NCBI GenBank assembly: GCA_019828595.1
Contig: JAHQRK010000020.1
Coordinates: forward strand, 1,054,001 to 1,118,000
DNA: 64,000 nt
Origin: Aphanomyces cochlioides
Taxonomy: Eukaryota; Oomycota; Saprolegniomycetes; Saprolegniales; Verrucalvaceae
Direction: 5' to 3'
Position numbers and translations under genes: made by a program. Below, one piece after another: positions 3,295-35,770 of the stretch. Position 1 is the first letter of the stretch. Each line of letters opens with the position of its first letter. The notes below the pieces were generated by a model. It was not told the DNA's origin. It was given only the letters and a program-made list of their open reading frames with translations, and did not search any database.

Positions 3295-5060
3295 ATGGAA
3301 GCGTTTGTACGACGACAGCAAGCAGGATTGCATGAAGCACTTGAAAACAAATTGCTCACCGACGTGACACTATGTGTCGGAACTGAGCAAATCCACGCTC
3401 ATCGACTTGTCCTTGCCCTCCACAGCCCCTATTTCTTGGCGATGTTCACCAACGGCATGAAAGAAAGCAACATGGAAGAAGTGAATGTGGACGTGGTTGA
3501 TCCTGACACCATGGCCTCTATCGTCGAGTACATGTATTCTGGCCGCGAAATCTCGATCAGTGACACAAATGTGTGGCCACTCTTGGACGCAAGTGATCAT
3601 CTCCAAATTGAGGTAAATATCTGCCCACCTGAGACTGTTCAAATCTCCATTAGGAGCTGGTCAATGCATGTTGCGTCAAAATGATTATGGAGCTCCAAGT
3701 TCACAATTGCATTGACATTTTTGCCTGCGCAGATAAGTTTCAGCTTCGTCCCCCCTGCACAATGCTCCGAAATATCGCTCTGACATTTGTCACGACATTT
3801 TTTCCTATCGTTGCTCTTTCAGAGTCATTTCGCCAGATCCCAGTTTCACATGTCTGCACAATCCTCCAAAGTGACAATCTTTGCATCGATGATGAAAACC
3901 AAGTTCTTGCTGCTGTAGTCTCTTGGGTTGCCCATGAGTCCAGCAGTCGAGTCGCGCATCTTCCACGTCTATTAGCATGCATCCGTCAAAATGGTTTTAC
4001 ACTGTCTAAGCCATGCTGGCCCCGACAAGCGTGGTATCTCTCAAGATGGCTCAATGTGCCGCCCGATCACCTCACAAACTACTTTCAATCACCACCGACA
4101 AGTCCTCGCCGTCGCATTTTCCCCATCATCTTTGCGCTTGGTGGCACAGACGGCAAGGCAATCTTGAAGTCATCCGAGTATTTCGACATGGTTTCCGGTA
4201 CTTGGCTTCCTTTTCGCCCCATGCTTACGCGCCGCGCTTATGCTGGAAGTGCCACATTCAAGAACTGCTTGTTTGTCCTCGGAGGCCATCATCACCGTCG
4301 ACGAAATCGCGCTGTCTTCTTGAAGTCCATGGAAGTGTACAGTCCCGACACGGATGAATGGCTGGAGCTTCCTTCCATGATGCACGAACGCAGCTACCTT
4401 GGCGTGGCTGTACTTGGCAACTACATTTATGCTCTTGGTGGCTACAATGGTGTCCGTCATTTCAACTGCGTCGAACGATACAACCTTGGTACCGGACACT
4501 GGGAGCATGCAGCTCCCATGCAAACCCCTCGAAGTGGTCTGAATGTTGCCGTCGCTGGCAATCGTATCTTCGCCGTCGGTGGTTTTGACGGTCGTGACCA
4601 TCTGAGCTCAGTGGAAGTCTACGATCCAGTGGCGAATTCATGGCAATTCGTGTCTCCCATGAGCGTTCCTCGCAATGGCGCTGCCCTTGTATCACTTGGC
4701 GACGACTACTTGTACATATTCGGCGGCGAAATTCGCAAAGACGAGCGTGTTTGCACCGGCGAAATGTACAATCTCGCGTTGGATCAATGGCAATCCAGTG
4801 CGAAGCTGCCCATCAGTTTGTGTGGTCATAGCGCCATCGTGTGGCAAAACCAGTTTGTCTTTTGCATTGGCGGTTCGTCCGCCATGGAGCCACATCTAAG
4901 TTCTGTCCTTCGCTTTGACGGCGTCACGCAATCATGGACACGCGTCGCTGACATGTCAAGTCCACGCGTCGGCATGACCGTCGCTTCCATGGCTTCCACC
5001 CCACTTCAACCTTTGCCACAATCCGCAGAACCATCTGCAGATCCTTCTCATCGCTCATAA
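3295..5060 (+). CDS. BTB-BACK-kelch protein (KLHL-like)
   Basis: Two exons with an intron at 3613-3653; splicing joins LQIE to ELVNACC. The N-terminal BTB domain (residues about 20-125) shows LTDVTLCVG and HRLVLALHSPYFLAMF. A BACK-like helical region follows, including IDIFACADKF. The C-terminal half has six kelch repeats, each with the Gly-Gly pair and spaced Tyr/Trp (for example YALGGYNGVR and FAVGGFDGRD). Family knowledge: such proteins are usually substrate adaptors of Cullin-3 ubiquitin ligases, with BTB binding Cul3 and the kelch propeller binding substrate. The end of the BACK region is less typical than in animal KLHL proteins. It lies 78 bp after the dioxygenase gene, same strand. 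Confidence 0.9.
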
Positions 5061-12181: not shown

Positions 12182-12192
12182 CAAGGGTGAGG

Positions 12193-12210
12193 CCAGGGCT
12201 ACGCCCCTGG
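12193..12210 (-). terminator. Helitron 3'-terminal hairpin, copy A
   Basis: ccagggctacgcccctgg, a 6-bp GC-rich stem placed 7 nt inside the terminal tetranucleotide at 12182-12185. In Helitrons this hairpin is the transposition terminator. The same structure ends copy C. Confidence 0.75.
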
Positions 12211-12679
12211 GTGGAGCGTTTTGCTTTGGAAATAACAAAGATTTGCTCACACACATGAAACGTTTGAAGCCATACTATGAATTTTGAATTTGATTCAGGC
12301 CCAGTTCGAAGTAAAAAAATAAGTTAACGCCGAGCATTCTGATTGGCTACTGTTGACTGACGAATATTTTTTTTCGTCAGGAGATAAATCATATACCCAA
12401 GTTCAGATTGCACAATCTGTGCGATCGATGAGTAGATCGAGGTCATCGTTGGTTGACAACCACGTACTTCTTCATCTTGTAATACTGTAACGTTGAATCT
12501 AAGTATATGGTGCGTAGTTTGGGGTTAGCTAATCTCGAGGATTTATCGTCCAATTCATCGGTACGATGCAATTGGACTTGATCCAGGAAGTCACGGCAAT
12601 TCCACAACAACACAGTGTATATATTTGTAAGAACATGATAACGTTTGTTAGTTATGGAGGAAGTTTTATGAAGTCCTGC

Positions 12680-14692
12680 CTATTGTAATGCTTCTTGATA
12701 CACAATGTGTTTCGTGTAGATTCCAGGCAGTCCATCGTCCTGTCCATTGGCGGTCAAAAACTTAATGTTGCCTTTTGCTTGGGCTCTTGACATGGCGACG
12801 TAAAGCTGTCCATGCGAGAAGACGGGTTCTGGAAGGTAGACGCTCACGTGAGAAATCGTTTGACCTTGAGCCTTGTGAATCGTCATTGCAAAGGCAACTT
12901 GAACAGGAAATTGTCTTCTGCGTAGCTCAAAGGGGTAATTGTTTTGCTCACCATCGTGAATTGTAGTAGTTCGGGGAATGTAAACGATCTTGTTCGTGTG
13001 GGAGCCGTTCATAATTTGAGCCTTGATACATCGTGTTTTCAGCTCAAGAACAATTAAACGTGTTCCGTTGCACATGCCTTCCGAAGTACACAAATTACGA
13101 AGCAGAATAATGGGGCAACCAACTTTCAAATGCAACTTGTGGCTGGGGAAGTTGTTGATGTCTATAGAATTCAGAAACTCGATGGGGAACTCGCATGCAT
13201 TTGTGTCCGAGTTGGGTTTGTCAGCAACAGAATCGGCGGACAAATATGTCATTTCGCAGTCGGAAGTGAGTCGCTCAAGAAGTGTTGTGTTGATGTCAGC
13301 AACAACACTATGTTTGGGTGCAAGGATAACTCGACATCCAAAGTACGATCTAAGTGCATTGATGCGCAGGTTGTTCATGTCTTGATAGACGCTGTGTAAA
13401 AATGACCCCAAATCATCAGGCGACTTGTATGGAATCGCCAAATCATCAGGTAGTCGAATGTAATCGGCACCGAATTCGGTACATGTGGGGTATGTTCCAT
13501 GACCAATAGACTTGAGCAATGCAGCAAACTCTCGAACACTCTCTGAGTTGTTGTTGGTCAACCTCATGTTCACCGTCAGATGAAACTGTGCGATATTTCT
13601 CCAAAGGTAGCTGTTCTTCAAGCACGCTTCGAGGATTAGCCCAGGTGTGCCCTTCAAAATGACTGGAAGCATTTGCTTGAAGTCGCCCGAGAATATGACG
13701 ACCTTTCCACCAAAAGGAAGCGCGTTGTCCATCAAATCTTGTAGCATGTGATCAACGGCCTCCACAACATACTTGTGCATCATCGAACACTCGTCCCAAA
13801 TGATAAGTTCTGTGAGACGTAAAAGTTCCGCAAGATGTGACTGCTTCCGAACGTCGCATCGGCTAAGCTTGTGCAATGATCTTGGAAGACAGAATCTCGA
13901 ATGCGCAGTTGTACCTCCGATCAAATTCAGAGCAGCAAGTCCGGACGAAGCAACAGGCAACGCAATTTTGTTCATTGAGCGCACTTGAGCCAGTAAAATG
14001 TTTGAGATGAACGTCTTCCCTGAGCCGCCCTCACCTTCGAGAAAATATACTTTGCCTCTTCGAACAGTGCTTTCCTTCGTAATCTCGCTCATAACGTCGT
14101 TGTAGAAGACCTCGTGCTCTTCGGTCATCGTAGACCTGCCTTCCAAAATGCTTTGGATTTGTTCTTGGTTGTGCGAAGATTCCATAGTCACTAATCGGTT
14201 GGATTGACGGCCCCTGTTTGTTTCCTCAAGAGCAAAATATTGTTCGAAATGTGCAAGCTGTGGAAGCTCCGGAAAACGATCCAAGCTTGATGCATTCGAC
14301 TCGGGGCATCTTGATAAAGCCTGAATTGCGAAAGCTGTAGATTTTTGAGAATCGTCGGGGTACATGCGGTGAAAATCTTGCCTCATTTCATCTTCGAATT
14401 TGTTCCATAGCCCTCGTGCGTCCGCAGGTTCACAGTGAATCAGAATACTGACAAAAAGTGTTCGGAGCTCATAGGGAGTTGCTGTTTCAGTTGCTTCTCG
14501 CATGCAGGTTAGCCATTCCTCGTCATTTTCAAGAAAGCCAAGGGCAAGTGCGGCTGACTTGAACGTCGGATGAACCACGCCATTGACGGTTCGCAAATCT
14601 TCGTGCGATGTCGGACCTCGTCGGTAGCATAAGAGCATTCGCATAAAAAAACAGTCTCCCGAGCGGGGTGACACCGTCATCCTCCCGATCAT
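12680..14692 (-). pseudogene. Helitron PIF1-like helicase segment, copy A
   Basis: 670 open codons. Walker A is GEGGSGKTF and Walker B is IIWDECSMMH. Further helicase motifs are VIFSGDFKQMLPVI, AMTIHKAQGQT and QLYVAMSRAQ. The region just upstream stays in the same frame but is cut off from the Rep part by a TAA. Differs from copies B and C at a few residues (TEFGAD instead of TELGAD, LHSVYQ instead of LHNVYQ, FGCRVIL instead of FGCRAIL, SVADK instead of SVPDK). The helicase motifs look intact; the full Rep-helicase protein cannot be made from a continuous frame. Confidence 0.9.
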
Positions 14693-14818
14693 ACGATCAC
14701 CACCCCTTTTACGTGATGTCCACTTGCGGAGCTTTTTGTTCCATACGAAATGCTCGGGGATATCATGGTACAGACATTCACGCGCAAGTGCTTGTGGATC
14801 ACTGTTTTCACGGCACAG

Positions 14819-15735
14819 TTAAAAAAACGCGGTGAGTTTCGTCCGGTTCCTCCTTGCCAATTCCTGAGGGCTCATCGGGCGGTCGGTAGGAATGCATACA
14901 ACTTGATCACCTTCCAAGTGTATTTCGAGGTTCTCGACAGCGTGAGATCGTTTGAACATGTCGAAAGAGAAAATGCGTGTGAGGGCCTCACAGCACGATA
15001 CATAGCGGGCATCTTGGTATTGCTTGATTTCGTCAAGTTCACTGGACTCAAGTTGAAAATTTGAGCGGTCTGAGCCCTTGTAGATGTACTTGTACAGGTA
15101 CTTGACTGCAGATATACTTGTACACGCCTCGACATTGATGTGGCAGTCGAACATGGCACTCAACGTTGGGCAGTACGGAATAACATATTGGTTGGTATAC
15201 TCAGAGGGCCGCTCTGCCGAAGAGCGGCGACGACGGTAGAGTGGATATCCATCACTGCCTTCTGATGTTTCGTTGCAGTATGCTTTTGGAAAGTTTTTCT
15301 TGCATTTCCCGTTTTCCAGGCATCGGTCGCTGCATTTGTGAATCATGCAGGTTGTAATAATTTCGTGCAGTCTTGGATTCTTTTCCTTGTCGGGGATTTC
15401 TGCACTGATAATACTGTCAATATCGGTAGCTGTCTTGATTTTGTCGTCCCCAGTGAATATGACCAATATATGGGCATAAGGCAGACCACGCTTTTGGAAT
15501 TCGACAACACGAACACACGCAGCTTGTCGACCCAAAACTGCCCCCTTGTACAGCATGGCTTCAATGGCTAAGAGCTTGAGGCGGAACATGCGCGTCACTA
15601 AGTCAGGTCGATCAGCTGGAGATCGTTTAAATCCATAGTCGTCTTTCGCCAATTCCAGCTCCCTGTCGATTTCAACCCACTTTGGATTGCATGTCACAGT
15701 GATAAAAAGGTCTGGTCGACCGACCGAACTTGCGA
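14819..15735 (-). pseudogene. Helitron Rep (HUH/Y2) segment, copy A
   Basis: Begins with GRPDLFITVTCNPKW, then the HUH region QKRGLPYAHIL and the two-tyrosine region VKYLYKYIYKG. The first His of the expected His-hydrophobic-His motif is Tyr (codon at 15476-15478). Upstream it is separated from ORF1 by a 4-bp duplication not found in copy C. It ends at an in-frame TAA after LTAFF in the shared T7 tract. Confidence 0.88.
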
Positions 15736-15766
15736 ACAATTGCCATGGCGTCAAGGTAACGTTGTC

Positions 15767-18003
15767 TCATGTACCGAGGTCCACCCGTGTAAGATGACGG
15801 CAAAACAGTCCTTTTTTAATGCTTTTGAGGTCCACATCATGCGAAACAGCGTCATGAAGTGCGCGGTACGTGTCGCTGCGGAGGTTGTTGGTTTGGTCAC
15901 GAATATATCGAAGCCTTTGGTTTTCCACCTTTGCAAAATTGTCGACTGCAAACACTTGAAATAGAGGTCCGCTGGCATGTAATGGAGAGAATGCACCGCG
16001 CTCGTGCAAATGGTATCGAGCATAATCGTTCAAACTCACGTTTTCATGATTGCGACCGCTCTTGTTGTCAAACGACCACCCCAAAGTCCCAGTGGGAAAG
16101 AGCAAAGGGTATTGAAGCGGGTCATATGCCGAATGAAATTCCTTAATGCGAAATAAGCGTTGTTCCCCAGGTTGTCGATCCAAACGCACATGTTTACCAA
16201 CGTGATAGTTTCGCTGAACTTCGCTGAGTACGGGGCCATCAATACCATGCAGTAAGATATGACGCCCTGACTTGGACGTTTCTGAAAAAAGAACAGCGAT
16301 TTCAGAACACGTAGGAAGGTTATGCGTTCGGCTGTTGCTTCGAGGCTGAGCAGTGAGCACTAATCTCATGTCGTCATCCTTTGGAATATCCTTCGCATGC
16401 TTGTACAGCTGGGTGAACGCGTTGTGCTGTAGTAGTAGACGCTGGATTTTCGTCACAGTTGACACATTAAGATTTCCCCAAGCATTCTTCGTCGTATGCT
16501 TGCTTGCGTTTCAGGATCCGTAATGTAGATCTGGGCGTAACCGGCTTGTTCTTCGTCCGCAGGCAACAGTGGTCCAATCAAATGATGCAAAGCGCCTTGG
16601 ATTGTATAAGATCTCGGCCCACCGTTGCCGTGAATAATTTCTTGGGTACCAATAGATGTAAAGGCAAAGAGGGCGTTGTACCGGCGAGTGTTATTGACAA
16701 ACCCTCTGGTTTTGAACAAAGCAATGTATTCGCGAAACTCGGGTGTGTCAGGCCAGGTAGCAACAGGCAGCACTCGAGTGCCTCCACCGCAGCAGTCCTT
16801 TTCTTCGCCTGGCCAAATCTTCGCTTCGCAATGGCGGCAAATCGAACGCTGCTCAATAGTATGAAGAGGCACCAATGATTCATCGAAGTCATCGAAACTG
16901 ACGCGTGCACTGTTGTGATCACTCTTCTTCTTCGGGCGACCCTTGGGTTTATTCCGGAGACTTAATCCTTGCTCGCGAGGAGGTACATCAATCAAATCCA
17001 CATCCACGTTTAGCGGAGGATCAGCATTTGCCAAGGCAAGTAATTGATTGTCAGTGTTGCAATCCACATTTCCATCGGAAATATCTTCTTCCTTGGTTTC
17101 TTCTTCACCTCCTTCATTCATACGGTTAGGTTGTAGCGCAGCATAGATCCTTCGATTGTCAACTCTGCGCTCGCGATCTTCTTGCTCCTGAGCTGCCAGA
17201 ATCTTGAGATGATGGTCACTTTGAGCGTGATAATGGATTCCGTCTTCTCCCTCCTTGGTTTCCTCTTCGTCGCTCTGATCCATGTCCGTATGGTGCAAAA
17301 TGATGGCACCCCGCCCTTGATTCGCAACCTCAGTGTTGTGCTTTTTTTCGCGAGCACGTTTGTTGTATTCGGCCTTCTTGGATCTTTTCATAGCCACCTC
17401 TTTGTCGAAGTCTTCCACGATAGCATGCCGTTTCTTTTCGCGAGCACGATTGTTGTACTCCGCCTTTTTGGATTTGTCGACCTCTTCCAGGAGAGCTTGC
17501 CGTTTCTGTTCGCGAGCACGATTGTTGTACTCCGCCTTTAGAAGAGCTTGCCGATTCTTTTCGCGAGCACGATTGTTGTACTCCGCCTTTTTAGATTTGT
17601 CCATTGCCACCTCTTCGTCGACTTCATCCAGGAGAGCTTGCCGTTTCTTTTTGCGAGCACGTTTGTTGTACTCCGCCTTCTTGGCCTTTCTCATAGCCGC
17701 CTCGTCGTTAGGCATCAAGGCATCGTCATCCACAGCTCGGCCATGAGCTCCAGTTGATGCAGACTCTTGTTCGGTAGCATGCACTTCATTCCGCTCTGCT
17801 TGCTTCCCAGGTTCGGAGTTATCGATCGCATGTCCTTGATTGTCATTGTCATGATTGCCATTGCCTTTGCCTTTCTTAGAGGCCGAGTAGTTGTTACTTT
17901 CTACGCAGAAAACTGCGTCAGACAAATGTTCATACAAAAACATCAACACAAAAATGATAATGTGATTGGATCGTAAAAATACTGTGGATATGTGTCCCGC
18001 CAC
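15767..18003 (-). pseudogene. Helitron N-terminal segment, copy A (frameshifted)
   Basis: Same content as the intact frame in copy C: a Lys/Arg-rich start with five KKAEYN-type repeats, a Cys-rich cluster (ICRHCEAKIW...CCGGGTRVLP), and the Helitron-like N-terminal domain. A G5-to-G4 change near 16478 shifts the frame after RRRMLG, so the segment is two overlapping frames (16453-18003 and 15767-16465). Confidence 0.85.
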
Positions 18004-18775
18004 TTAAGCTTAACATAATGTGGTTTGCCAGAAAATACTACTCATTTCTTTCATAAATCGTACAGAATTCGCGGTATTTATTAAACATCACATTGTTTAA
18101 TATCGCTTATTGAACTCGTACATCCAATGAGTCGAAACTTTGATACTGGGTAATACACCTGCTAAGTATCATGAAACACCCCTGAAGTGTTTCAATCTAC
18201 TCGCCGTAGGCCCACTATCAACAGTGGTACTCCATCAAAAAAAGTAGCACCATCAGTTGCAATAGTGGTAACCAACGTTACACATTGTCCCCTTACTGTA
18301 AAAAGTTGAACTATGGGGAGAGGATTTACTCGTCCAAAGTCAATATGAAAATACAGTAAAAACACACGTTTTAGCTGTCCCTGGCAGCTCTATGAAAATG
18401 TCCGGTATTTCGAGCCAAAAAGGCCCTACTTCGTAACATTCGCATATATAATTTTTTTATTTTTTAAAAAAATTTCTTGATCGCGTCGGAATTCGTCTTT
18501 CGGAGTCCAAGCCTCTGGCCAGGGTATGGCTTAAAGTGGCAGAAAGGGCTCGTCACCCTACTGCACAGTGTGTTGACCGCTTATTCAGCGGCCTTTTCTG
18601 CCCCAGTGAAGCTATCCTAAGACATGCATCTCACTTTGCATCGTCCCAGAAAAACCCAACTGCCATTCAATCGTCTTGGGCAGGTAGTATTGTAAATAGT
18701 AGGACAATATATTTTCATTTTGTATGTGGAATTGTTTGATTATTAATATTATCGACAACTGCCACGTCCAGCATC

Positions 18776-19513
18776 ATGCTGTGCAAGGGGGCAGTTTTGG
18801 GTCGACAAGCTGCGTGTGTTCGTGTTGTCGAATTCCAAAAGCGTGGTCTGCCTTATGCCCATATATTGGTCATATTCACTGGGGACGACAAAATCAAGAC
18901 AGCTACCGATATTGACAGTATTATCAGTGCAGAAATCCCCGACAAGGAAAAGAATCCAAGACTGCACGAAATTATTACAACCTGCATGATTCACAAATGC
19001 AGCGACCGATGCCTGGAAAACGGGAAATGCAAGAAAAACTTTCCAAAAGCATACTGCAACGAAACATCAGAAGGCAGTGATGGATATCCACTCTACCGTC
19101 GTCGCCGCTCTTCGGCAGAGCGGCCCTCTGAGTATACCAACCAATATGTTATTCCGTACTGCCCAACGTTGAGTGCCATGTTCGACTGCCACATCAATGT
19201 CGAGGCGTGTACAAGTATATCTGCAGTCAAGTACCTGTACAAGTACATCTACAAGGGCTCAGACCGCTCAAATTTTCAACTTGAGTCCAGTGAACTTGAC
19301 GAAATCAAGCAATACCAAGATGCCCGCTATGTATCGTGCTGTGAGGCCCTCACACGCATTTTCTCTTTCGACATGTTCAAACGATCTCACGCTGTCGAGA
19401 ACCTCGAAATACACTTGGAAGGTGATCAAGTTGTATGCATTCCTACCGACCGCCCGATGAGCCCTCAGGAATTGGCAAGGAGGAACCGGACGAAACTCAC
19501 CGCGTTTTTTTAA
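18776..19513 (+). pseudogene. Helitron Rep fragment, copy B
   Basis: Starts inside the Rep domain and includes QKRGLPYAHIL (Tyr codon at 18854-18856) and VKYLYKYIYKG, ending at the shared in-frame TAA. It lacks the upstream RPDLFITVTCNP strand. Confidence 0.88.
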
Positions 19514-21569
19514 CTGTGCCGTGAAAACAGTGATCCACAAGCACTTGCGCGTGAATGTCTGTACCATGATATCCCCGAGCATTTCGTATGGAACAAAAAG
19601 CTCCGCAAGTGGACATCACGTAAAAGGGGTGGTGATCGTATGATCGGGAGGATGACGGTGTCACCCCGCTCGGGAGACTGTTTTTTTATGCGAATGCTCT
19701 TATGCTACCGACGAGGTCCGACATCGCACGAAGATTTGCGAACCGTCAATGGCGTGGTTCATCCGACGTTCAAGTCAGCCGCACTTGCCCTTGGCTTTCT
19801 TGAAAATGACGAGGAATGGCTAACCTGCATGCGAGAAGCAACTGAAACAGCAACTCCCTATGAGCTCCGAACACTTTTTGTCAGTATTCTGATTCACTGT
19901 GAACCTGCGGACGCACGAGGGCTATGGAACAAATTCGAAGATGAAATGAGGCAAGATTTTCACCGCATGTACCCCGACGATTCTCAAAAATCTACAGCTT
20001 TCGCAATTCAGGCTTTATCAAGATGCCCCGAGTCGAATGCATCAAGCTTGGATCGTTTTCCGGAGCTTCCACAGCTTGCACATTTCGAACAATATTTTGC
20101 TCTTGAGGAAACAAACAGGGGCCGTCAATCCAACCGATTAGTGACTATGGAATCTTCGCACAACCAAGAACAAATCCAAAGCATTTTGGAAGGCAGGTCT
20201 ACGATGACCGAAGAGCACGAGGTCTTCTACAACGACGTTATGAGCGAGATTACGAAGGAAAGCACTGTTCGAAGAGGCAAAGTATATTTTCTCGAAGGTG
20301 AGGGCGGCTCAGGGAAGACGTTCATCTCAAACATTTTACTGGCTCAAGTGCGCTCAATGAACAAAATTGCGTTGCCTGTTGCTTCGTCCGGACTTGCTGC
20401 TCTGAATTTGATCGGAGGTACAACTGCGCATTCGAGATTCTGTCTTCCAAGATCATTGCACAAGCTTAGCCGATGCGACGTTCGGAAGCAGTCACATCTT
20501 GCGGAACTTTTACGTCTCACAGAACTTATCATTTGGGACGAGTGTTCGATGATGCACAAGTATGTTGTGGAGGCCGTTGATCACATGCTACAAGATTTGA
20601 TGGACAACGCGCTTCCTTTTGGTGGAAAGGTCGTCATATTCTCGGGCGACTTCAAGCAAATGCTTCCAGTCATTTTGAAGGGCACACCTGGGCTAATCCT
20701 CGAAGCGTGCTTGAAGAACAGCTACCTTTGGAGAAATATCGCACAGTTTCATCTGACGGTGAACATGAGGTTGACCAACAACAACTCAGAGAGTGTTCGA
20801 GAGTTTGCTGCATTGCTCAAGTCAATTGGTCATGGAACATACCCCACATGTACCGAACTCGGTGCCGATTACATTCGACTACCTGATGATTTGGCGATTC
20901 CATACAAGTCGCCTGATGATTTGGGGTCATTTTTACACAACGTCTATCAAGACATGAACAACCTGCGCATCAATGCACTTAGATCGTACTTTGGATGTCG
21001 AGCTATCCTTGCACCCAAACATAGTGTTGTTGCTGACATCAACACAACACTTCTTGAGCGACTCACTTCCGACTGCGAAATGACATATTTGTCCGCCGAT
21101 TCCGTTCCTGACAAACCCAACTCGGACACAAATGCATGCGAGTTCCCCATCGAGTTTCTGAATTCTATAGACATCAACAACTTCCCCAGCCACAAGTTGC
21201 ATTTGAAAGTTGGTTGCCCCATTATTCTGCTTCGTAATTTGTGTACTTCGGAAGGCATGTGCAACGGAACACGTTTAATTGTTCTTGAGCTGAAAACACG
21301 ATGTATCAAGGCTCAAATTATGAACGGCTCCCACACGAACAAGATCGTTTACATTCCCCGAACTACTACAATTCACGATGGTGAGCAAAACAATTACCCC
21401 TTTGAGCTACGCAGAAGACAATTTCCTGTTCAAGTTGCCTTTGCAATGACGATTCACAAGGCTCAAGGTCAAACGATTTCTCACGTGAGCGTCTACCTTC
21501 CAGAACCCGTCTTCTCGCATGGACAGCTTTACGTCGCCATGTCAAGAGCCCAAGCAAAAGGCAACATTA
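18776..21569 (+). mobile_element. Helitron copy B, truncated at both ends (loop of the inverted repeat)
   Basis: Corresponds to copy C 25620-28413 at the same length (2,794 bp) and appears almost identical, differing for example at MLCKGA versus MLYKGA. It begins inside the Rep segment at atgctgt and stops inside the helicase after AKGNI. It has neither a Helitron 5' end nor a 3' hairpin, so it was not placed here by normal transposition. At the four protein positions where A and C differ in the helicase, B has the C residue. Confidence 0.92.
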
Positions 21570-21616
21570 GTCAACAAATGAGCAATTTTTATATACTTTA
21601 TCCAAGTACAAAATGA
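19640..21616 (+). pseudogene. Helitron helicase fragment, copy B
   Basis: Helicase motifs as in copy C up to MSRAQAKGNI (21569). The frame then runs into unrelated sequence and stops at 21616, so the last 30 or so residues of the family are missing. The 42 codons between the shared TAA and this start are open and in the same frame. Confidence 0.88.
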
Positions 21617-21681
21617 GCAATTTTTACATACAAACGCCAAGCCAAAAAAAGAGTAATTTGAGACAAGTTCGTTCATGCACC
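21570..21681. other. Unrelated loop sequence between copy B and the right arm
   Basis: About 110 bp not found in the arms. It holds a short tandem-like duplication, aaatgagcaatttttatata then aaatgagcaatttttacata, about 25 bp apart. No gene. Confidence 0.5.
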
Positions 21682-21791
21682 CATGATGCTGGACGTGGCA
21701 GTTGTCGATAATATTAATAATCAAACAATTCCACATACAAAATGAAAATATTGTCCTACTATTTAAAATAATACCTGCCAAAGACGAGATG

Positions 21792-22502
21792 GGCGCTCCT
21801 CCAAAGGAACCCCACTGGACTCTTTCAACCTGTATTAAACCGTCCGCATAATTATCCGGATATCCATGGAAACATCCATGGATATTTCCTTGGACGGAAC
21901 AAAGTGACATGGAATGCAATGAACGCTGTCATGTATTAGATGTAGGTTTTACGAATAGCTATCACTAAGCCTTTAAAATACATACTACCTGTTGCGTTTT
22001 GCTTCGCCACATGAACTGATCAAGGTAAGATTGAAGGTCGTCAGTTTGAACACCTCGCATGGCCTTCAAGTACTGTTTCACACGTACTTCCCACACACCT
22101 TCAATTGACTGTGAGTTTCATTCAACAGGAGTTTCAACTTACTTTCATGCACCATTCAACAGCGGCTGACTCGCTGACTGTTTCCTTCATAACCCTGTCG
22201 AACGTGTAGTCCGAGACATCGGACAAGTCATATAGACTGTCTATTGCAAATTTCGAAATGTATGTCCAGACAAGTGAATGGCTCTTATTGTTTGTGTTTA
22301 GTGGGTTTCAACTGGAGTGGTATTCTATTTCTAAGTATAAGGATTGGATGGTTCTCTTTCAATGGCGCGCATTTGTGGGGTCAGATTGGAGTTTATAGTG
22401 TATCTGGATAATCGATTCTTTTATCTGGATACAAAATCAATTCGTCATTTGTCCGTTAATACAGGTTGAAAGAGTCCAGTGGGGTTCCTTTGGAGGAGCG
22501 CC
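21792..22502 (-). mobile_element. Merlin/IS1595-like element with 47-bp TIRs
   Basis: Perfect terminal inverted repeats at 21792-21838 and 22456-22502 (ggcgctcctccaaaggaacc... at both ends), flanked by the 8-bp direct repeat acgagatg at 21784-21791 and 22503-22510. Removing the element and one flank restores alignment to the other arm. An 8-9-bp target duplication and a DDE transposase of the ISXO2 type fit the Merlin/IS1595/IS1016 superfamily. At 711 bp it is too small to encode a full transposase. Confidence 0.9.
21989..22300 (-). pseudogene. Remnant ISXO2/Merlin-like transposase with spliceosomal intron
   Basis: The minus strand reads ESAAVEWCMK, then a 36-nt GT-AG intron, then SIEGVWEVRVKQYLKAMRGV and LQSYLDQFMWRSKTQQ, followed by a second GT donor. 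The SIEG-W-x-x-VK and LxSYLxxFMWR segments are the C-terminal signature of ISXO2-like DDE transposases. The N-terminal half and most of the DDE core are missing. Confidence 0.75.
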
Positions 22503-23235
22503 ACGAGATGCATGGCAATTGGGTTTTTCTGGGACGATGCAAGATGAGATGCATGTCTTAGGATAGCTTCACTCGGGCAGAAAAGGCCGCTGAATAAGCG
22601 GTCAACACACTGTGCAGTAGGGTAACGAGCCCTTTCTGCCACTTTAAGCCATACCCTGGCCAGAGGCTTGGACTCCGAAAGACGAATTCCGACGCGATCA
22701 TGAAATTTTTTTAAAAAATAAAAAAATTATATATGCGAATGTTACGAAGTAGGGCCTTTTTGGCTCGAAAATACCGGACATTTTCATAGAGCTGCCAGGG
22801 ACAGCTAAAACGTGTGTTTTTACTGTATTTTCATATTGACTTTGGACGAGTAAATCCTCTCCCCATAGTTCAACTTTTTACAGTAAGGGGACAATGTGTA
22901 ACGTTGGTTACCACTATTGCAACTGATGGTGCTACTTTTTTTGATGGAGTACCACTGTTGATAGTGGGCCTACGGCGAGTAGATTGAAACACTTCAGGGG
23001 TGTTTCATGATACTTAGCAGGTGTATTACCCAGTATCAAAGTTTCAACTCATTGGATGTACGAGTTCAATAAGCGATATTAAACAATGTGATGTTTAATA
23101 AATACCGCGAATTCTGTACGATTTATGAAAGAAATGAGTAGTATTTTCTGGCAAACCACATTATGTTAAGCTTAAGTGGCGGGACACATATCCACAGTAT
23201 TTTTACGATCCAATCACATTATCATTTTTGTGTTG

Positions 23236-25413
23236 ATGTTTTTGTATGAACATTTGTCTGACGCAGTTTTCTGCGTAGAAAGTAACAACTACTCGGCCTC
23301 TAAGAAAGGCAAAGGCAATGGCAATCATGACAATGACAATCAAGGACATGCGATCGATAACTCCGAACCTGGGAAGCAAGCAGAGCGGAATGAAGTGCAT
23401 GCTACCGAACAAGAGTCTGCATCAACTGGAGCTCATGGCCGAGCTGTGGATGACGATGCCTTGATGCCTAACGACGAGGCGGCTATGAGAAAGGCCAAGA
23501 AGGCGGAGTACAACAAACGTGCTCGCAAAAAGAAACGGCAAGCTCTCCTGGATGAAGTCGACGAAGAGGTGGCAATGGACAAATCTAAAAAGGCGGAGTA
23601 CAACAATCGTGCTCGCGAAAAGAATCGGCAAGCTCTTCTAAAGGCGGAGTACAACAATCGTGCTCGCGAACAGAAACGGCAAGCTCTCCTGGAAGAGGTC
23701 GACAAATCCAAAAAGGCGGAGTACAACAATCGTGCTCGCGAAAAGAAACGGCATGCTATCGTGGAAGACTTCGACAAAGAGGTGGCTATGAAAAGATCCA
23801 AGAAGGCCGAATACAACAAACGTGCTCGCGAAAAAAAGCACAACACTGAGGTTGCGAATCAAGGGCGGGGTGCCATCATTTTGCACCATACGGACATGGA
23901 TCAGAGCGACGAAGAGGAAACCAAGGAGGGAGAAGACGGAATCCATTATCACGCTCAAAGTGACCATCATCTCAAGATTCTGGCAGCTCAGGAGCAAGAA
24001 GATCGCGAGCGCAGAGTTGACAATCGAAGGATCTATGCTGCGCTACAACCTAACCGTATGAATGAAGGAGGTGAAGAAGAAACCAAGGAAGAAGATATTT
24101 CCGATGGAAATGTGGATTGCAACACTGACAATCAATTACTTGCCTTGGCAAATGCTGATCCTCCGCTAAACGTGGATGTGGATTTGATTGATGTACCTCC
24201 TCGCGAGCAAGGATTAAGTCTCCGGAATAAACCCAAGGGTCGCCCGAAGAAGAAGAGTGATCACAACAGTGCACGCGTCAGTTTCGATGACTTCGATGAA
24301 TCATTGGTGCCTCTTCATACTATTGAGCAGCGTTCGATTTGCCGCCATTGCGAAGCGAAGATTTGGCCAGGCGAAGAAAAGGACTGCTGCGGTGGAGGCA
24401 CTCGAGTGCTGCCTGTTGCTACCTGGCCTGACACACCCGAGTTTCGCGAATACATTGCTTTGTTCAAAACCAGAGGGTTTGTCAATAACACTCGCCGGTA
24501 CAACGCCCTCTTTGCCTTTACATCTATTGGTACCCAAGAAATTATTCACGGCAACGGTGGGCCGAGATCTTATACAATCCAAGGCGCTTTGCATCATTTG
24601 ATTGGACCACTGTTGCCTGCGGACGAAGAACAAGCCGGTTACGCCCAGATCTACATTACGGATCCTGAAACGCAAGCAAGCATACGACGAAGAATGCTTG
24701 GGGGAAATCTTAATGTGTCAACTGTGACGAAAATCCAGCGTCTACTACTACAGCACAACGCGTTCACCCAGCTGTACAAGCATGCGAAGGATATTCCAAA
24801 GGATGACGACATGAGATTAGTGCTCACTGCTCAGCCTCGAAGCAACAGCCGAACGCATAACCTTCCTACGTGTTCTGAAATCGCTGTTCTTTTTTCAGAA
24901 ACGTCCAAGTCAGGGCGTCATATCTTACTGCATGGTATTGATGGCCCCGTACTCAGCGAAGTTCAGCGAAACTATCACGTTGGTAAACATGTGCGTTTGG
25001 ATCGACAACCTGGGGAACAACGCTTATTTCGCATTAAGGAATTTCATTCGGCATATGACCCGCTTCAATACCCTTTGCTCTTTCCCACTGGGACTTTGGG
25101 GTGGTCGTTTGACAACAAGAGCGGTCGCAATCATGAAAACGTGAGTTTGAACGATTATGCTCGATACCATTTGCACGAGCGCGGTGCATTCTCTCCATTA
25201 CATGCCAGCGGACCTCTATTTCAAGTGTTTGCAGTCGACAATTTTGCAAAGGTGGAAAACCAAAGGCTTCGATATATTCGTGACCAAACCAACAACCTCC
25301 GCAGCGACACGTACCGCGCACTTCATGACGCTGTTTCGCATGATGTGGACCTCAAAAGCATTAAAAAAGGACTGTTTTGCCGTCATCTTACACGGGTGGA
25401 CCTCGGTACATGA
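23236..25413 (+). pseudogene. Helitron N-terminal segment, copy C
   Basis: Open from before 23176, but the first in-frame ATG is at 23236. The first about 200 residues are highly charged and contain five copies of a 17-20-residue unit, KKAEYN(K/N)RAREKKRQALL, one of them shortened. A Cys cluster (ICRHC...CCGGG) and the Helitron-like N-terminal region follow (FHSAYDPLQYPLLFPTG, LNDYARYHL). The frame is lost after KSIKKGLFC; the expected LPSSYTGGPRYM continues one frame over in the next segment. The likely lesion is in or near the A6 tract at about 25363-25368, shared with copy A. Confidence 0.88.
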
Positions 25414-26357
25414 GACAACGTTACCTTGACGCCATGGCAATTGTTCGCAAGTTCGGTCGACCAGACCTTTTTATCACTGTGACATGCAATCCAAAGTGGG
25501 TTGAAATCGACAGGGAGCTGGAATTGGCGAAAGACGACTATGGATTTAAACGATCTCCAGCTGATCGACCTGACTTAGTGACGCGCATGTTCCGCCTCAA
25601 GCTCTTAGCCATTGAAGCCATGCTGTACAAGGGGGCAGTTTTGGGTCGACAAGCTGCGTGTGTTCGTGTTGTCGAATTCCAAAAGCGTGGTCTGCCTTAT
25701 GCCCATATATTGGTCATATTCACTGGGGACGACAAAATCAAGACAGCTACCGATATTGACAGTATTATCAGTGCAGAAATCCCCGACAAGGAAAAGAATC
25801 CAAGACTGCACGAAATTATTACAACCTGCATGATTCACAAATGCAGCGACCGATGCCTGGAAAACGGGAAATGCAAGAAAAACTTTCCAAAAGCATACTG
25901 CAACGAAACATCAGAAGGCAGTGATGGATATCCACTCTACCGTCGTCGCCGCTCTTCGGCAGAGCGGCCCTCTGAGTATACCAACCAATATGTTATTCCG
26001 TACTGCCCAACGTTGAGTGCCATGTTCGACTGCCACATCAATGTCGAGGCGTGTACAAGTATATCTGCAGTCAAGTACCTGTACAAGTACATCTACAAGG
26101 GCTCAGACCGCTCAAATTTTCAACTTGAGTCCAGTGAACTTGACGAAATCAAGCAATACCAAGATGCCCGCTATGTATCGTGCTGTGAGGCCCTCACACG
26201 CATTTTCTCTTTCGACATGTTCAAACGATCTCACGCTGTCGAGAACCTCGAAATACACTTGGAAGGTGATCAAGTTGTATGCATTCCTACCGACCGCCCG
26301 ATGAGCCCTCAGGAATTGGCAAGGAGGAACCGGACGAAACTCACCGCGTTTTTTTAA
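25377..26357 (+). pseudogene. Helitron Rep (HUH/Y2) segment, copy C
   Basis: Reads PSSYTGGPRYMRQRYLDAMA and RPDLFITVTCNPKW, then QKRGLPYAHIL (Tyr codon at 25698-25700 in place of the first catalytic His), a Cys/His cluster (CMIHKCSDRCLENGKCKKNF) and the two-tyrosine motif VKYLYKYIYKG. It ends at TAA in the T7 tract at 26350-26356. The 42 codons after that TAA stay open in the same frame and read LCRENSDPQALARECLYHDI, the family's normal continuation. Confidence 0.9.
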
Positions 26358-26483
26358 CTGTGCCGTGAAAACAGTGATCCACAAGCACTTGCGCGTGAAT
26401 GTCTGTACCATGATATCCCCGAGCATTTCGTATGGAACAAAAAGCTCCGCAAGTGGACATCACGTAAAAGGGGTGGTGATCGT

Positions 26484-28496
26484 ATGATCGGGAGGATGAC
26501 GGTGTCACCCCGCTCGGGAGACTGTTTTTTTATGCGAATGCTCTTATGCTACCGACGAGGTCCGACATCGCACGAAGATTTGCGAACCGTCAATGGCGTG
26601 GTTCATCCGACGTTCAAGTCAGCCGCACTTGCCCTTGGCTTTCTTGAAAATGACGAGGAATGGCTAACCTGCATGCGAGAAGCAACTGAAACAGCAACTC
26701 CCTATGAGCTCCGAACACTTTTTGTCAGTATTCTGATTCACTGTGAACCTGCGGACGCACGAGGGCTATGGAACAAATTCGAAGATGAAATGAGGCAAGA
26801 TTTTCACCGCATGTACCCCGACGATTCTCAAAAATCTACAGCTTTCGCAATTCAGGCTTTATCAAGATGCCCCGAGTCGAATGCATCAAGCTTGGATCGT
26901 TTTCCGGAGCTTCCACAGCTTGCACATTTCGAACAATATTTTGCTCTTGAGGAAACAAACAGGGGCCGTCAATCCAACCGATTAGTGACTATGGAATCTT
27001 CGCACAACCAAGAACAAATCCAAAGCATTTTGGAAGGCAGGTCTACGATGACCGAAGAGCACGAGGTCTTCTACAACGACGTTATGAGCGAGATTACGAA
27101 GGAAAGCACTGTTCGAAGAGGCAAAGTATATTTTCTCGAAGGTGAGGGCGGCTCAGGGAAGACGTTCATCTCAAACATTTTACTGGCTCAAGTGCGCTCA
27201 ATGAACAAAATTGCGTTGCCTGTTGCTTCGTCCGGACTTGCTGCTCTGAATTTGATCGGAGGTACAACTGCGCATTCGAGATTCTGTCTTCCAAGATCAT
27301 TGCACAAGCTTAGCCGATGCGACGTTCGGAAGCAGTCACATCTTGCGGAACTTTTACGTCTCACAGAACTTATCATTTGGGACGAGTGTTCGATGATGCA
27401 CAAGTATGTTGTGGAGGCCGTTGATCACATGCTACAAGATTTGATGGACAACGCGCTTCCTTTTGGTGGAAAGGTCGTCATATTCTCGGGCGACTTCAAG
27501 CAAATGCTTCCAGTCATTTTGAAGGGCACACCTGGGCTAATCCTCGAAGCGTGCTTGAAGAACAGCTACCTTTGGAGAAATATCGCACAGTTTCATCTGA
27601 CGGTGAACATGAGGTTGACCAACAACAACTCAGAGAGTGTTCGAGAGTTTGCTGCATTGCTCAAGTCAATTGGTCATGGAACATACCCCACATGTACCGA
27701 ACTCGGTGCCGATTACATTCGACTACCTGATGATTTGGCGATTCCATACAAGTCGCCTGATGATTTGGGGTCATTTTTACACAACGTCTATCAAGACATG
27801 AACAACCTGCGCATCAATGCACTTAGATCGTACTTTGGATGTCGAGCTATCCTTGCACCCAAACATAGTGTTGTTGCTGACATCAACACAACACTTCTTG
27901 AGCGACTCACTTCCGACTGCGAAATGACATATTTGTCCGCCGATTCCGTTCCTGACAAACCCAACTCGGACACAAATGCATGCGAGTTCCCCATCGAGTT
28001 TCTGAATTCTATAGACATCAACAACTTCCCCAGCCACAAGTTGCATTTGAAAGTTGGTTGCCCCATTATTCTGCTTCGTAATTTGTGTACTTCGGAAGGC
28101 ATGTGCAACGGAACACGTTTAATTGTTCTTGAGCTGAAAACACGATGTATCAAGGCTCAAATTATGAACGGCTCCCACACGAACAAGATCGTTTACATTC
28201 CCCGAACTACTACAATTCACGATGGTGAGCAAAACAATTACCCCTTTGAGCTACGCAGAAGACAATTTCCTGTTCAAGTTGCCTTTGCAATGACGATTCA
28301 CAAGGCTCAAGGTCAAACGATTTCTCACGTGAGCGTCTACCTTCCAGAACCCGTCTTCTCGCATGGACAGCTTTACGTCGCCATGTCAAGAGCCCAAGCA
28401 AAAGGCAACATTAAGTTTTTGACCGCCAATGGACAGGACGATGGACTGCCTGGAATCTACACGAAACACATTGTGTATCAAGAAGCATTACAATAG
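26484..28496 (+). pseudogene. Helitron PIF1-like helicase segment, copy C
   Basis: 670 open codons with all superfamily 1 motifs (GEGGSGKTF, WDECSMMH, FSGDFKQMLPVI, MTIHKAQGQT, YVAMSRAQ). Unwinds DNA during rolling-circle transposition in functional relatives. Here it is separated from Rep by the shared in-frame stop, so it could only be made by readthrough or internal initiation. Confidence 0.9.
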
Positions 28497-28785
28497 GCAG
28501 GACTTCATAAAACTTCCTCCATAACTAACAAACGTTATCATGTTCTTACAAATATATACACTGTGTTGTTGTGGAATTGCCGTGACTTCCTGGATCAAGT
28601 CCAATTGCATCGTACCGATGAATTGGACGATAAATCCTCGAGATTAGCTAACCCCAAACTACGCACCATATACTTAGATTCAACGTTACAGTATTACAAG
28701 ATGAAGAAGTACGTGGTTGTCAACCAACGATGACCTCGATCTACTAATCGATCGCACAGATTGTGCAATCTGAACTTGGGTATAT

Positions 28786-29405
28786 TCTGCTTAGATTCAA
28801 CCTCAGCATTAAAATGGGAGAAGCATATCGAACAGCGGCAAGCTATAAAATTATCAAAGAGTCTGCTTCTTGGAAACAGTCTTTTTGCCGTTCACATCGT
28901 GCGCAAAGTTGCCGCAACGGGAAAGATCTCTATACCAGCAGTACAACCAGCTGCTGAAACTTCGGCATTTAAATTGACCTTCTTGGCCGTGCTCCTAGAA
29001 CCTCCACCCACCACATGCCACGCTCACATTGGACACAACCGTAGATTACCATCTATTGTTCGCCTTTCTCCATCTAGATATACTATGTCTCCGACAGTAG
29101 TCGCCTTGAGCATCATCTAAGCGCATGGTCATCAGTGTCTTGCCGTCAAATGCGCCGTGAATAGGACTGGGTACCTCGAGCGTCTGTATTATCACTGATA
29201 AGTCGTTCGTGTTATCTGTGCAAGTACTGGCATTTTTGCACAACAAAACAGGGAAACTATGGAGGCCAATTCGAAGTAAAATAAGAAAGAAGTGAATAAG
29301 GAGTGCGAAGTAAATGCCGTCTCCTTAGTTTGAAAATAATATGATCTCTGATTGGATAATTTATTTTTCTTTCGGTACGAGTCGACGGTTTTTTGGTCAG
29401 GACAT
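28786..29405. other. 620-bp block present only in Helitron copy C
   Basis: Copy A is continuous across this position (gggtatatgatttatctcc). In C an AT dinucleotide flanks both sides of the block. The minus strand holds an open stretch with EVPSPIHGAFDGKTLMTMRL, which looks like real coding sequence but which I cannot assign. The right part (about 29264-29405) contains ggccaattcgaagtaaaataag, a degenerate inverted relative of the sequence at about 29480-29505, so the region can fold back on itself. It may be a captured fragment or insertion, or sequence deleted from copy A. Confidence 0.6.
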
Positions 29406-29585
29406 GATTTATCTCCTGACGAAAAAAAAATATTCGTCAGTCAACAGTAGCCAATCAGAATGCTCGGCGTTAACTTATTTTTTACTTCGAACTGGGCCTG
29501 AATCAAATTCAAAATTCATTGTATGGCTTCAAACGTTTCATGTGTGTGAGCAAATCTTTGTTATTTCCAAAGCAAAACGCTCCAC

Positions 29586-29614
29586 CCAGGGGCGTAGCCC
29601 TGGCCTCACCCTAG
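29586..29614 (+). terminator. Helitron 3' end, copy C (hairpin plus CTAG)
   Basis: ccaggggcgtagccctgg forms a 6-bp GC stem; cctcacc follows, then CTAG and T. This matches the Helitron rule of a short hairpin just inside CTRR with insertion before T. Confidence 0.85.
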
Positions 29615-33196: not shown

Positions 33197-34071
33197 TCAT
33201 GGGAGCAACTGTAAAAAGTGGGACCTCAGCGTTACTCGTTGATTTCCAATACAAAGCACGATACAATCAAGAGCTCCCAGAGATCGGAGACACTTGATGT
33301 CCTGGTCTATTCGAGGGTGGCAAGCTGTTGGCGTCACCACGTTCGATTGCATTGTAGTTTCTTGGTCTTTGGGTTTCTCCAGGCAAAGAACGACTCGCCA
33401 TGAGGCATCCATAACGTAAAAGACCGACGTCGAGCACGGGCTCAAAGTCGAGCACCAATCACAGTCCAGTATTTATTAGAGGGAAAACTCTACATAATCT
33501 ATCCCTCTGATTCGATGCAAAAATGCATCACATTTTCCATACAAAATTCCATATATTCTGTTTCGGATAAACAAATGGACGAAGAAATTTTGTGAGAAAC
33601 ACCATATGATACTTTTTGTTGCTGGCGGGACAAATTAAAAATATCATTCAATCTTTTGACATATCTGACGATATTTTGCGATATAAATGGGCAAATTGCC
33701 TTCTCGATGTGGTTTGAATATGACATAGCTACTGGTGTTGCTTCCCACAATATTTGGTCAAAGCTTTGTGTAATGCTTACAATACCATTCCATATGGTCA
33801 CATGCAAAGTCGGTAGCGCCGCTCTTTTCGTGGTGAAATCGCCTCAACGTGTAGGAGTGTTTCAGTCATAGCAGCTTGTTCTTATTCGCCGAAACAGTGG
33901 TATTTCGCAGAAACAATTTATTTTTGACAAATCACAATTGTTGACATTTTATGACCAAAAAACGAGTCGAAAATCAGAATTTGATGCAAATTTGCATCAC
34001 CCGCCCTCGAAATTTTATTTATCCGGATTCCGATTGAAATTTCCCGCCAAGTGCATTGACCCTTGGTTCAA
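33197..34071. other. AT-rich spacer with two related palindromes
   Basis: No gene beyond possible 5' exons of the preceding minus-strand gene before about 33460. gatgcaaaaatgcatcac at about 33515-33532 and gatgcaaatttgcatcac at about 33981-33998 are related; the second contains a perfect 16-bp palindrome. The right part probably belongs to the pogo-like element. Confidence 0.45.
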
Positions 34072-35770
34072 TATGCCACCTGAACCACAACTTGACAAAA
34101 GGCACGAAATGGACACTGCAATCCATCAAGTATTGAACGGAGAAACGTGTCGACTGGTGTCCAATGAAACTGGCATTTCATACTCTACGTTGACAGCACA
34201 CATGAGAGCCACCAAGACCGGCAAGAAGATTCGAGCTGACGGGCGTCCACCAGCATTGCCTCTCGACTGCGAGAAGGACATTGTCTGTTGGATTATTGCT
34301 ATGCAAATTCATGGTCTCCCTGTTCGACGTCAAGACATCATGGTAAAAGCAAACAAAGTTGGTTGGAAAATGCGACCCGACTTTTCCCTTGGACACGGTT
34401 GGTACAAAGGATTTAGATCCCGCCATCCCATCTTGAGTGATCGGATTTCCCAAACAATCTCCCGAGCTCGCAATTCTGTAGACACTGATGGCGTCGAGTC
34501 ATTATATGCATTGTTGGAGAATCTGGTCGATACCCTTGACTTAACCCCTGACCGAATTTGGAATATGGACGAAACTGCTTTTCAAACACGCAAAAGGGGT
34601 CAAAAGGTGGTGGCCGTGAAAGGCTCAAGAAATGTGTGGAACCATACAGTAAATGCAAACTACCACCTGTCTATTGCTGCCTGTGTGCGAGCCGATGGAA
34701 AATTTTTCCCTCCAACATTCGTGTTTCCTGGCGAATCAGTGGAAAGAAGCTTGTCAAATTCGTGCAAGGTAGCTGGAGCGACTGTTACAATTGCACCAAA
34801 GGGATGGATGAACGAGGAATTCTTCGTTTCGTGGCTCAAACACTTTGGTGAAAGCCTTGGACCGGATGTCCAGCGCCCTGTTGTATTGACAATGGACGGA
34901 CTCTCGTCACATTGCTGTCCTGATAGTATCAAGGTTGACAATGACCTGGGAATTATGCTACTTTGCTAAAGTTCTAATGCTACTCATATATTGCAGCCTC
35001 GAGATGTTGCAGTATTTAAATCATTCAAGAGTTCAATTAAACGAAAGATATTTGAAGCTTTGATTAACGACGGTAAACTATCTCATTGTCAAGCTAACTT
35101 ATGGCGTAGACACTGGTGACTTTATGACAATTACTAAAGAGAAAGGACTTGAAATTGCATCGGACGCATGGCTTGAAAATGTGTCGTCCAAAATGTAATC
35201 GCGGGATTTACAGGCTGTGGAATTTGGCCACTATCAAAGGATAAAATGTTAGAGCGATTCAATCGCTTTCGGGAGAACGGTGTACCTGTTCGTATAGAGC
35301 AAGCTGAATGGATAGTTTTTCACGATGCCATACGAGCTGAAGTTCTCACGCTCCCACCGCAACCGACCAGCAAGCGTGGGGGCTAAAGAGTTGTCACAGG
35401 AGCCCGAATATTGTCAATCGAGGCACTGGCGGAGCAAGATGTAACCAAAGAAGCCCGCAAACAAGCAACAACCCAAGCAAAAGAGCTGAAGCTGAAGCGA
35501 CAAGCGAAGCGACAAGCTAAGCAGCAAGTCCAGCAACAAGCCAAGCGACGAGCCACAGAACAAGCACCAGCGAACAAGCAACACTGCGAGACACGGAGCA
35601 AGCCAGCGAACAAGCCACGGAACGAGCCACGGAACAAGCGACAGAACAAGCAACGAGACAAGCCACGGAAGAAGCCGAACGCACGCAAAGTGGACAGACA
35701 AAAGCAGTCGTTGAACCAGGCACTGCAGCTCTACAGATGGGGTATGAGATCATTGAGTTGTAGAGTGTAG
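34072..35770 (+). pseudogene. pogo/CENP-B-like transposase with two in-frame stops
   Basis: ATG at 34072. An N-terminal helix-turn-helix part (CRLVSNETGISYSTLTAHMR) is followed by a CENP-B/Tc5-type DNA-binding region ending GHGWYKGFRSRHP. The DDE_1 catalytic core has the first Asp in IWNMDETAFQ and the second in VLTMDGLSSHC. After GIMLLC an in-frame TAA (34967-34969) interrupts; the same frame goes on as SSNATHILQPRDVAVFKSFK, and a short intron and further family-like sequence (NVIAGFTGCGIWPLSKDK) follow. A second in-frame TAA follows TSKRGG. The tail (35411-35700) is low-complexity Lys/Gln/Arg. Related elements use TA target sites; TIRs were not located. Confidence 0.85.
35420..35700 (+). 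repeat. Low-complexity purine-rich caagc/acggaa repeat
   Basis: Degenerate tandem units such as aagcgacaagc, gagccacggaac and gaacaagc coding for Lys/Gln/Arg-rich sequence at the 3' end of the transposase frame. Expanded by slippage, by the look of it. Confidence 0.6.

Follow-up and report, generated by a model that had tools for sequence, protein, structure and literature searches.

The 64,000-nt stretch of the Aphanomyces cochlioides genome analysed here (the window; G000:C13:1054001-1118000) carries an inverted pair of near-full-length Helitron copies, arm A on the minus strand (12182-18778) and arm B on the plus strand (21570-29614), with their 5′ sides facing each other. The arms form a mosaic, in which a near-identical body with sequence states private to the locus is flanked by ends that differ between the arms as copies of the family differ elsewhere. 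The pair probably, if only narrowly so, goes back to two insertions in opposite orientation whose 5′ sides became fused and whose bodies were homogenised by arm-to-arm gene conversion.

Anatomy of the inverted pair

Self-comparison of the window recovered both arms in three inverted matches: 12181-12392/29404-29615 (98.1%), 12391-18669/22509-28785 (99.67% over 6,281 bp) and 18671-18778/21682-21787 (95.4%). These matches are far beyond chance and bear out the description of two near-full, near-identical Helitrons lying head to head. The features of the region are as follows.

12182-18778, minus strand: arm A, a Helitron with its 3′ end CTTG at 12182-12185 (complement), 5′-truncated at catgatgctgg (18778)
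18775-18778, no strand: A/C junction, CATG microhomology of 4 bp
18775-21569, plus strand: fragment C, an internal piece of a third Helitron, equal to B 25619-28413 with 1 mismatch
21570-29614, plus strand: arm B, a Helitron with truncated 5′ start and its 3′ end CTAG at 29611-29614
21792-22502, no strand: element of 711 bp with terminal inverted repeats (TIRs), in B; 47-bp TIRs at 21792-21838 and 22456-22502
23047-27667, plus strand: substitution-free stretch of B versus A, 0 of 4,620 compared positions; a 1-base indel at 24700 and a 4-base indel at 25452
23176-26354, plus strand: Rep (Helitron_like_N) coding region of B, spread over two open frames that overlap (23176-25410 and 25365-26354)
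26358-28493, plus strand: PIF1-like helicase coding region of B, by Pfam match
27668-27951, plus strand: island of 284 bp with 6 substitutions between A and B, C agreeing with B
28786-29403, plus strand: segment of about 618 bp near the 3′ end of B, absent from A

On the outside, homology stops exactly at the Helitron 3′ termini, CTTG followed by T in A and CTAG followed by T in B, and on the inside it stops at catgatgctgg, both as initially annotated. The left flank (601 bp tested) and the right flank (401 bp tested) are each single copy in the genome searched (76.2 Mb in 94 contigs), and when each flank was searched singly it matched only itself, with no empty insertion site elsewhere in the genome. 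An IFT122-like gene is the left neighbour of the pair, and the open frame on its right has no Pfam match. Further along the window, an open frame with Tc5-type HTH and DDE domains (33872-34966) represents a transposase relative near the palindrome.

The two Rep frames of arm B matched PF14214 (E 2.6e-36 and 5.4e-07) and its helicase frame matched PF05970 (E 2.3e-63), the best protein match of the latter coming from Aphanomyces euteiches (94% identity, 94% query coverage). B is thus predicted to combine the Rep (Helitron_like_N) and PIF1 helicase regions of a canonical Helitron. The 3′ ends show the short hairpin, the CTRR terminus and the following host T, the CTTG of A being a variant outside CTRR. 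The 5′ ends are lost in both arms; siblings start with TCTATTACTTAAGG, and the truncation amounts to 295-306 bp in A (measured against two siblings) and to about 75 bp or more in B (measured against one sibling). Judged by sequence features, both arms can be classed as canonical Helitrons of one family. They resemble the canonical element as outlined in the available text of PMC2267711 and PMC4778049 (RepHel, 5′-TC...CTRR-3′, 3′ hairpin, insertion between A and T) in the TC start of the siblings, the CTAG end of B, the hairpin CCAGGGGCGTAGCCCTGG, the T after the 3′ end, the Helitron_like_N and PIF1 domains and the head-to-tail CTAG/TC junctions within the family; they differ from it in that the arms are inverted and 5′-truncated and that A ends in CTTG.

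The 2,903 nt between the inner homology ends (18778 to 21682) had been described as a loop of 2.9 kb. The length stands, but most of this region is a third Helitron copy, with 2,795 bases (18775-21569) belonging to fragment C and the remainder being the 5′ region of arm B itself, and the view of the loop as a plain spacer was dropped. Fragment C is cut at both ends, and its lone mismatch to B lies 8 bases past the A/C junction, where ...CAGCATCATG of A joins CATGCTGT... of C, with CATG common to both. At the C/B junction about 1 base is shared, as read by eye. Since neither internal junction has a second occurrence in the genome (a 28-mer across A/C at ≤2 mismatches and a 29-mer across C/B at ≤3 mismatches), there is no sign in these genome-wide searches of the whole palindrome moving as a unit. 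The breakpoint of arm A lies inside the loop of a hairpin, defined by 23-base stems with ≤3 substitutions per stem. Of the 52 fetched loci in which the same 5′ region is present, 10 carry this hairpin (9 distinct copies); arm B is without it.

Two large indels distinguish the arms. The TIR element of B, absent from A, is flanked by the 8-bp duplication ACGAGATG at 21784-21791 and 22503-22510, and 19 further copies in the fetched loci have its right part at the same position. It is a non-autonomous, hAT-like TIR element with an 8-bp target duplication, sitting at the same place within a Helitron sublineage. The 618-bp segment is also present in copy C8b (C8:1012-1020 kb, L071).

Divergence between the arms

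The arms were compared with 7 of the 67 other body copies, five of them long (C8a, C25, C8b, C16p and C16m, the last 5′-truncated) and two partial (C1 and C2). Within 22508-28785, A and B differ by 16 substitutions in total, of which nine fall in 22508-23046, none in the next 4.6 kb, six in 27668-27951 and one at 28746. A clean run of that length was obtained in 0 of 200,000 random placements of 16 substitutions, a control that assumes a uniform rate. Over the substitution-free stretch, the five other long copies differ from A or B at 59-83 sites and the two partial copies at 19/1380 and 16/1379. Body divergence among A, B and C is 0-0.25%, that of the seven sampled other copies is 1.2-1.8%, and A and B diverge by 1-3% at the arm ends. 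Furthermore, A and B share 39 private states that are absent from the sampled other copies (4 to 7 present per site); 26 such states are shared within a second pair on C16, and 0-9 in the other 19 of 21 pairs. Sharing of states that are absent from outside copies is expected of the arms of a gene-converting palindrome.

Statements about the closest relative of each part rest on the matches listed, 40 of which were scored from the 95-409 candidates of each search. Among the matches listed, A was the closest match of B both for a 3,333-bp body query (5980 bits, next 5794; 40 of 127 candidates) and for 22503-23003 (854 bits, next 813; 40 of 409 candidates). At the 3′ end, no difference separates the last 212 bp of B from C8b (0/212), against 2 substitutions and 2 one-base indels between B and A; the matches listed for the last 212 bp of B do not include A, and those listed for the last 220 bp of A do not include B (each 40 of 284 candidates). 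Counted by substitutions, the ends of A lie at least as close to B as to the other sampled copies: in the last 212 bp A differs from B at 2/211 and from C8b at 2/212 sites, with 3-6 for the others; in the 5′ 106 bp from B at 3/106, with 4-6 for the others; and in 22505-23046 from B at 9/538, the next value being 10/504. The case for separate ends is therefore carried by the pair of large indels, together with the small indels and the match of B to other copies.

Within the island at 27668-27951, the common family state is found in A at 3 of the 6 sites and in B at the other 3, and at one of these latter sites the state of A occurs also in C1. We tentatively regard the island as an unconverted part of A. 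The end and island differences between the arms are at family level. The initial annotation had suggested that the event be dated by arm identity, which fails because the identity is confined to a patch, the body, with family-level differences to its left and right.

The Helitron family across the genome

The 3′ 24-mer of the family has 272 genome matches at ≤1 mismatch, 136 on each strand (against 0 for the reversed control), and a helicase 30-mer has 70 matches at ≤3 mismatches, 40 forward and 30 reverse (control 0). The fetched loci contain 42 distinct 3′ ends, namely 39 CTAG, 2 CTTG and 1 CTAT, with T as the next base in 41, and 22 of the 42 run directly into a 5′ TC start. These CTAG/TC junctions are an indirect sign, at the sequence level, that the family may transpose by a rolling-circle mechanism. 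They resemble the tandem head-to-tail arrays and Helraiser circles reported in the available parts of PMC4778049 and PMC5876387, and C-B may be one such pair. The rolling-circle models given in those parts explain head-to-tail junctions and circles, but not a head-to-head arrangement as found here. Long head-to-tail arrays of short Helitron units, satellite-like and with a spacing of about 1.9 kb and 1.4 kb, respectively, are present at C10:1596-1628 kb and C1:2706-2747 kb.

Among the 70 body copies, neighbours within 20 kb are arranged head to tail in 16 cases, head to head in 3 and tail to tail in 0, in agreement with the earlier view that head-to-tail is the usual arrangement. The three head-to-head cases are the pair in the window, the pair on C16 and a non-adjacent one at C13:777/796 kb. 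The last was set aside, as it consists of two separate copies >8 kb apart, and no minus-strand Helitron match was found in the 8.1 kb upstream of the 5′ end of the plus-strand copy (L072).

The C16 pair (C16:1221000-1240400; L065 and L066) has 6.9-kb arms at 99.6%, both of which include a tandem junction. Its centre contains pieces joined together, which correspond in reverse complement to a 782-bp tandem repeat and to nearby right-flank sequence; in the right flank itself these pieces are spaced apart, with a tRNA-Arg gene at the edge of the repeat. A 3′-3′ fold-back was seen at C5:1230.4 kb (L067, about 4432-4490), where a plus-strand 3′ end is joined by 23 bases of the Helitron 3′ end in inverted orientation, the two overlapping by ACGC at the switch point.

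Origin of the pair

The exact 3′ ends in different flanks, together with end markers that are present in B and elsewhere and missing from A, suggest that each arm arose from an insertion of its own. According to the explanation that we prefer, two canonical Helitrons of one family would have inserted in opposite orientation into one intergenic region, bounded by the IFT122-like gene on the left and the open frame on the right, B arriving as part of, or beside, the plus-strand copy C. The facing 5′ sides and any host DNA between them would then have been lost and fused by end joining or template switching, A to C at the 4-bp CATG and C to B at about 1 bp. Fragment C could be what is left of a tandem C-B arrangement, head to tail, or else an insertion templated by B during repair. 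Subsequently the inverted arms may have recombined, a conversion tract of about 6 kb (roughly 22,650-28,700 in B) erasing the body differences and halting about 200 bp or less from the TIR element and the 618-bp segment, the two large heterologies. An identical body that is private to the locus and ends near large heterologies is the trace expected of gene conversion between inverted arms. The anatomy, the ends and the mosaic are direct observations, and we infer the separate insertions, the order of events, the loss of intervening DNA and the conversion with its direction; A may have been the recipient, although the direction points only weakly towards A, given that the common state in the island is split between A (3 of 6 sites) and B (the other 3).

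Each of the parts and processes is known individually. Gene conversion between palindrome arms is established for the W palindromes of willow (PMC7023750, from the portion available), which likewise have inverted arms with a substitution-free stretch and outside copies that differ; the arms there carry sex-chromosome genes, whereas the arms here are copies of a transposon and the tract measures about 6 kb. Two adjacent Helitrons have been described in maize (PMC2267711), head to head according to the abstract and head to tail according to the body text. That pair also lies side by side, but its two members are significantly unlike in sequence, and near-identical inverted arms are not described in the text available. 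The accessible part of PMC9674265 mentions a fungus in which other elements occur as head-to-head copies. Among the matches listed in the open-licence literature searched, as far as the text of these sources was available, a near-identical head-to-head Helitron palindrome was not described.

The serious rival, fairly unlikely in our assessment, is a fold-back or template-switch inverted duplication, in which the replication of one Helitron switched strands, both arms were made at once and the ends were changed later by ectopic conversion or indels. The near-identical bodies private to the locus would be expected from such an event, and the substitution counts, by which no sampled copy is nearer to the ends of A than B is, the short microhomologies, the insert C cut at both ends and the breakpoint of A in the loop of a hairpin carried by other copies are all compatible with it. 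The C16 pair, with the tandem junction included in both arms and inverted flank pieces in its centre, and the C5 fold-back with its ACGC overlap add to this side; the shared tandem junction of the C16 arms fits duplication at least as well. However, a fold-back predicts homology that runs past the element into duplicated flank or ends without relation to the end of the element, and here it stops exactly at both 3′ termini, with no flank common to the arms beyond them. Moreover, the TIR element and the 618-bp segment occur in B and other copies but not in A, and two later changes would be needed. The initial annotation had offered a fold-back or a large inverted duplication as the origin, which is thereby less supported, as the shared flank and shared ends that it predicts are absent.

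An arm that arose as a fresh copy of the other, landing nearby in inverted orientation with later deletion between the two, would account for the exact 3′ ends with T after them and for the near-identical bodies, but such a copy should keep the same ends, and A lacks both large markers of B, so this local transposition appears improbable. An assembly artefact, in which dispersed Helitrons with 98-99% identity were misjoined, we regard as very improbable. The 70 body and 272 3′-end matches make mis-joins possible, but the arm differences are fixed, the two internal junctions are found nowhere else, and A, B and C share states unseen in the sampled copies elsewhere, which joining dispersed copies would not give. 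Arm-to-arm conversion between two insertions best fits the data, at somewhat better than even probability, and the two unshared end markers support it over duplication. Against this preferred explanation, a similar mosaic would result if an inverted duplication had its ends overwritten afterwards.

The C16 pair and the C5 3′-3′ fold-back indicate that inverted copying may occur in this Helitron family. If that reading holds, two head-to-head pairs and one 3′-3′ fold-back in one genome would be traces of recurrent strand switching. It is conceivable, though we think it unlikely, that the family repeatedly makes inverted head-to-head copies through strand switching in replication or repair and so seeds gene-converting palindromes. 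Inverted transposon copies can seem identical over several kilobases and yet keep separate markers at their ends, and the identity of such mosaic arms should therefore not be taken as the age of their pairing. Should strand switching indeed make head-to-head pairs, this family would provide a usable record of palindrome formation by rolling-circle elements.
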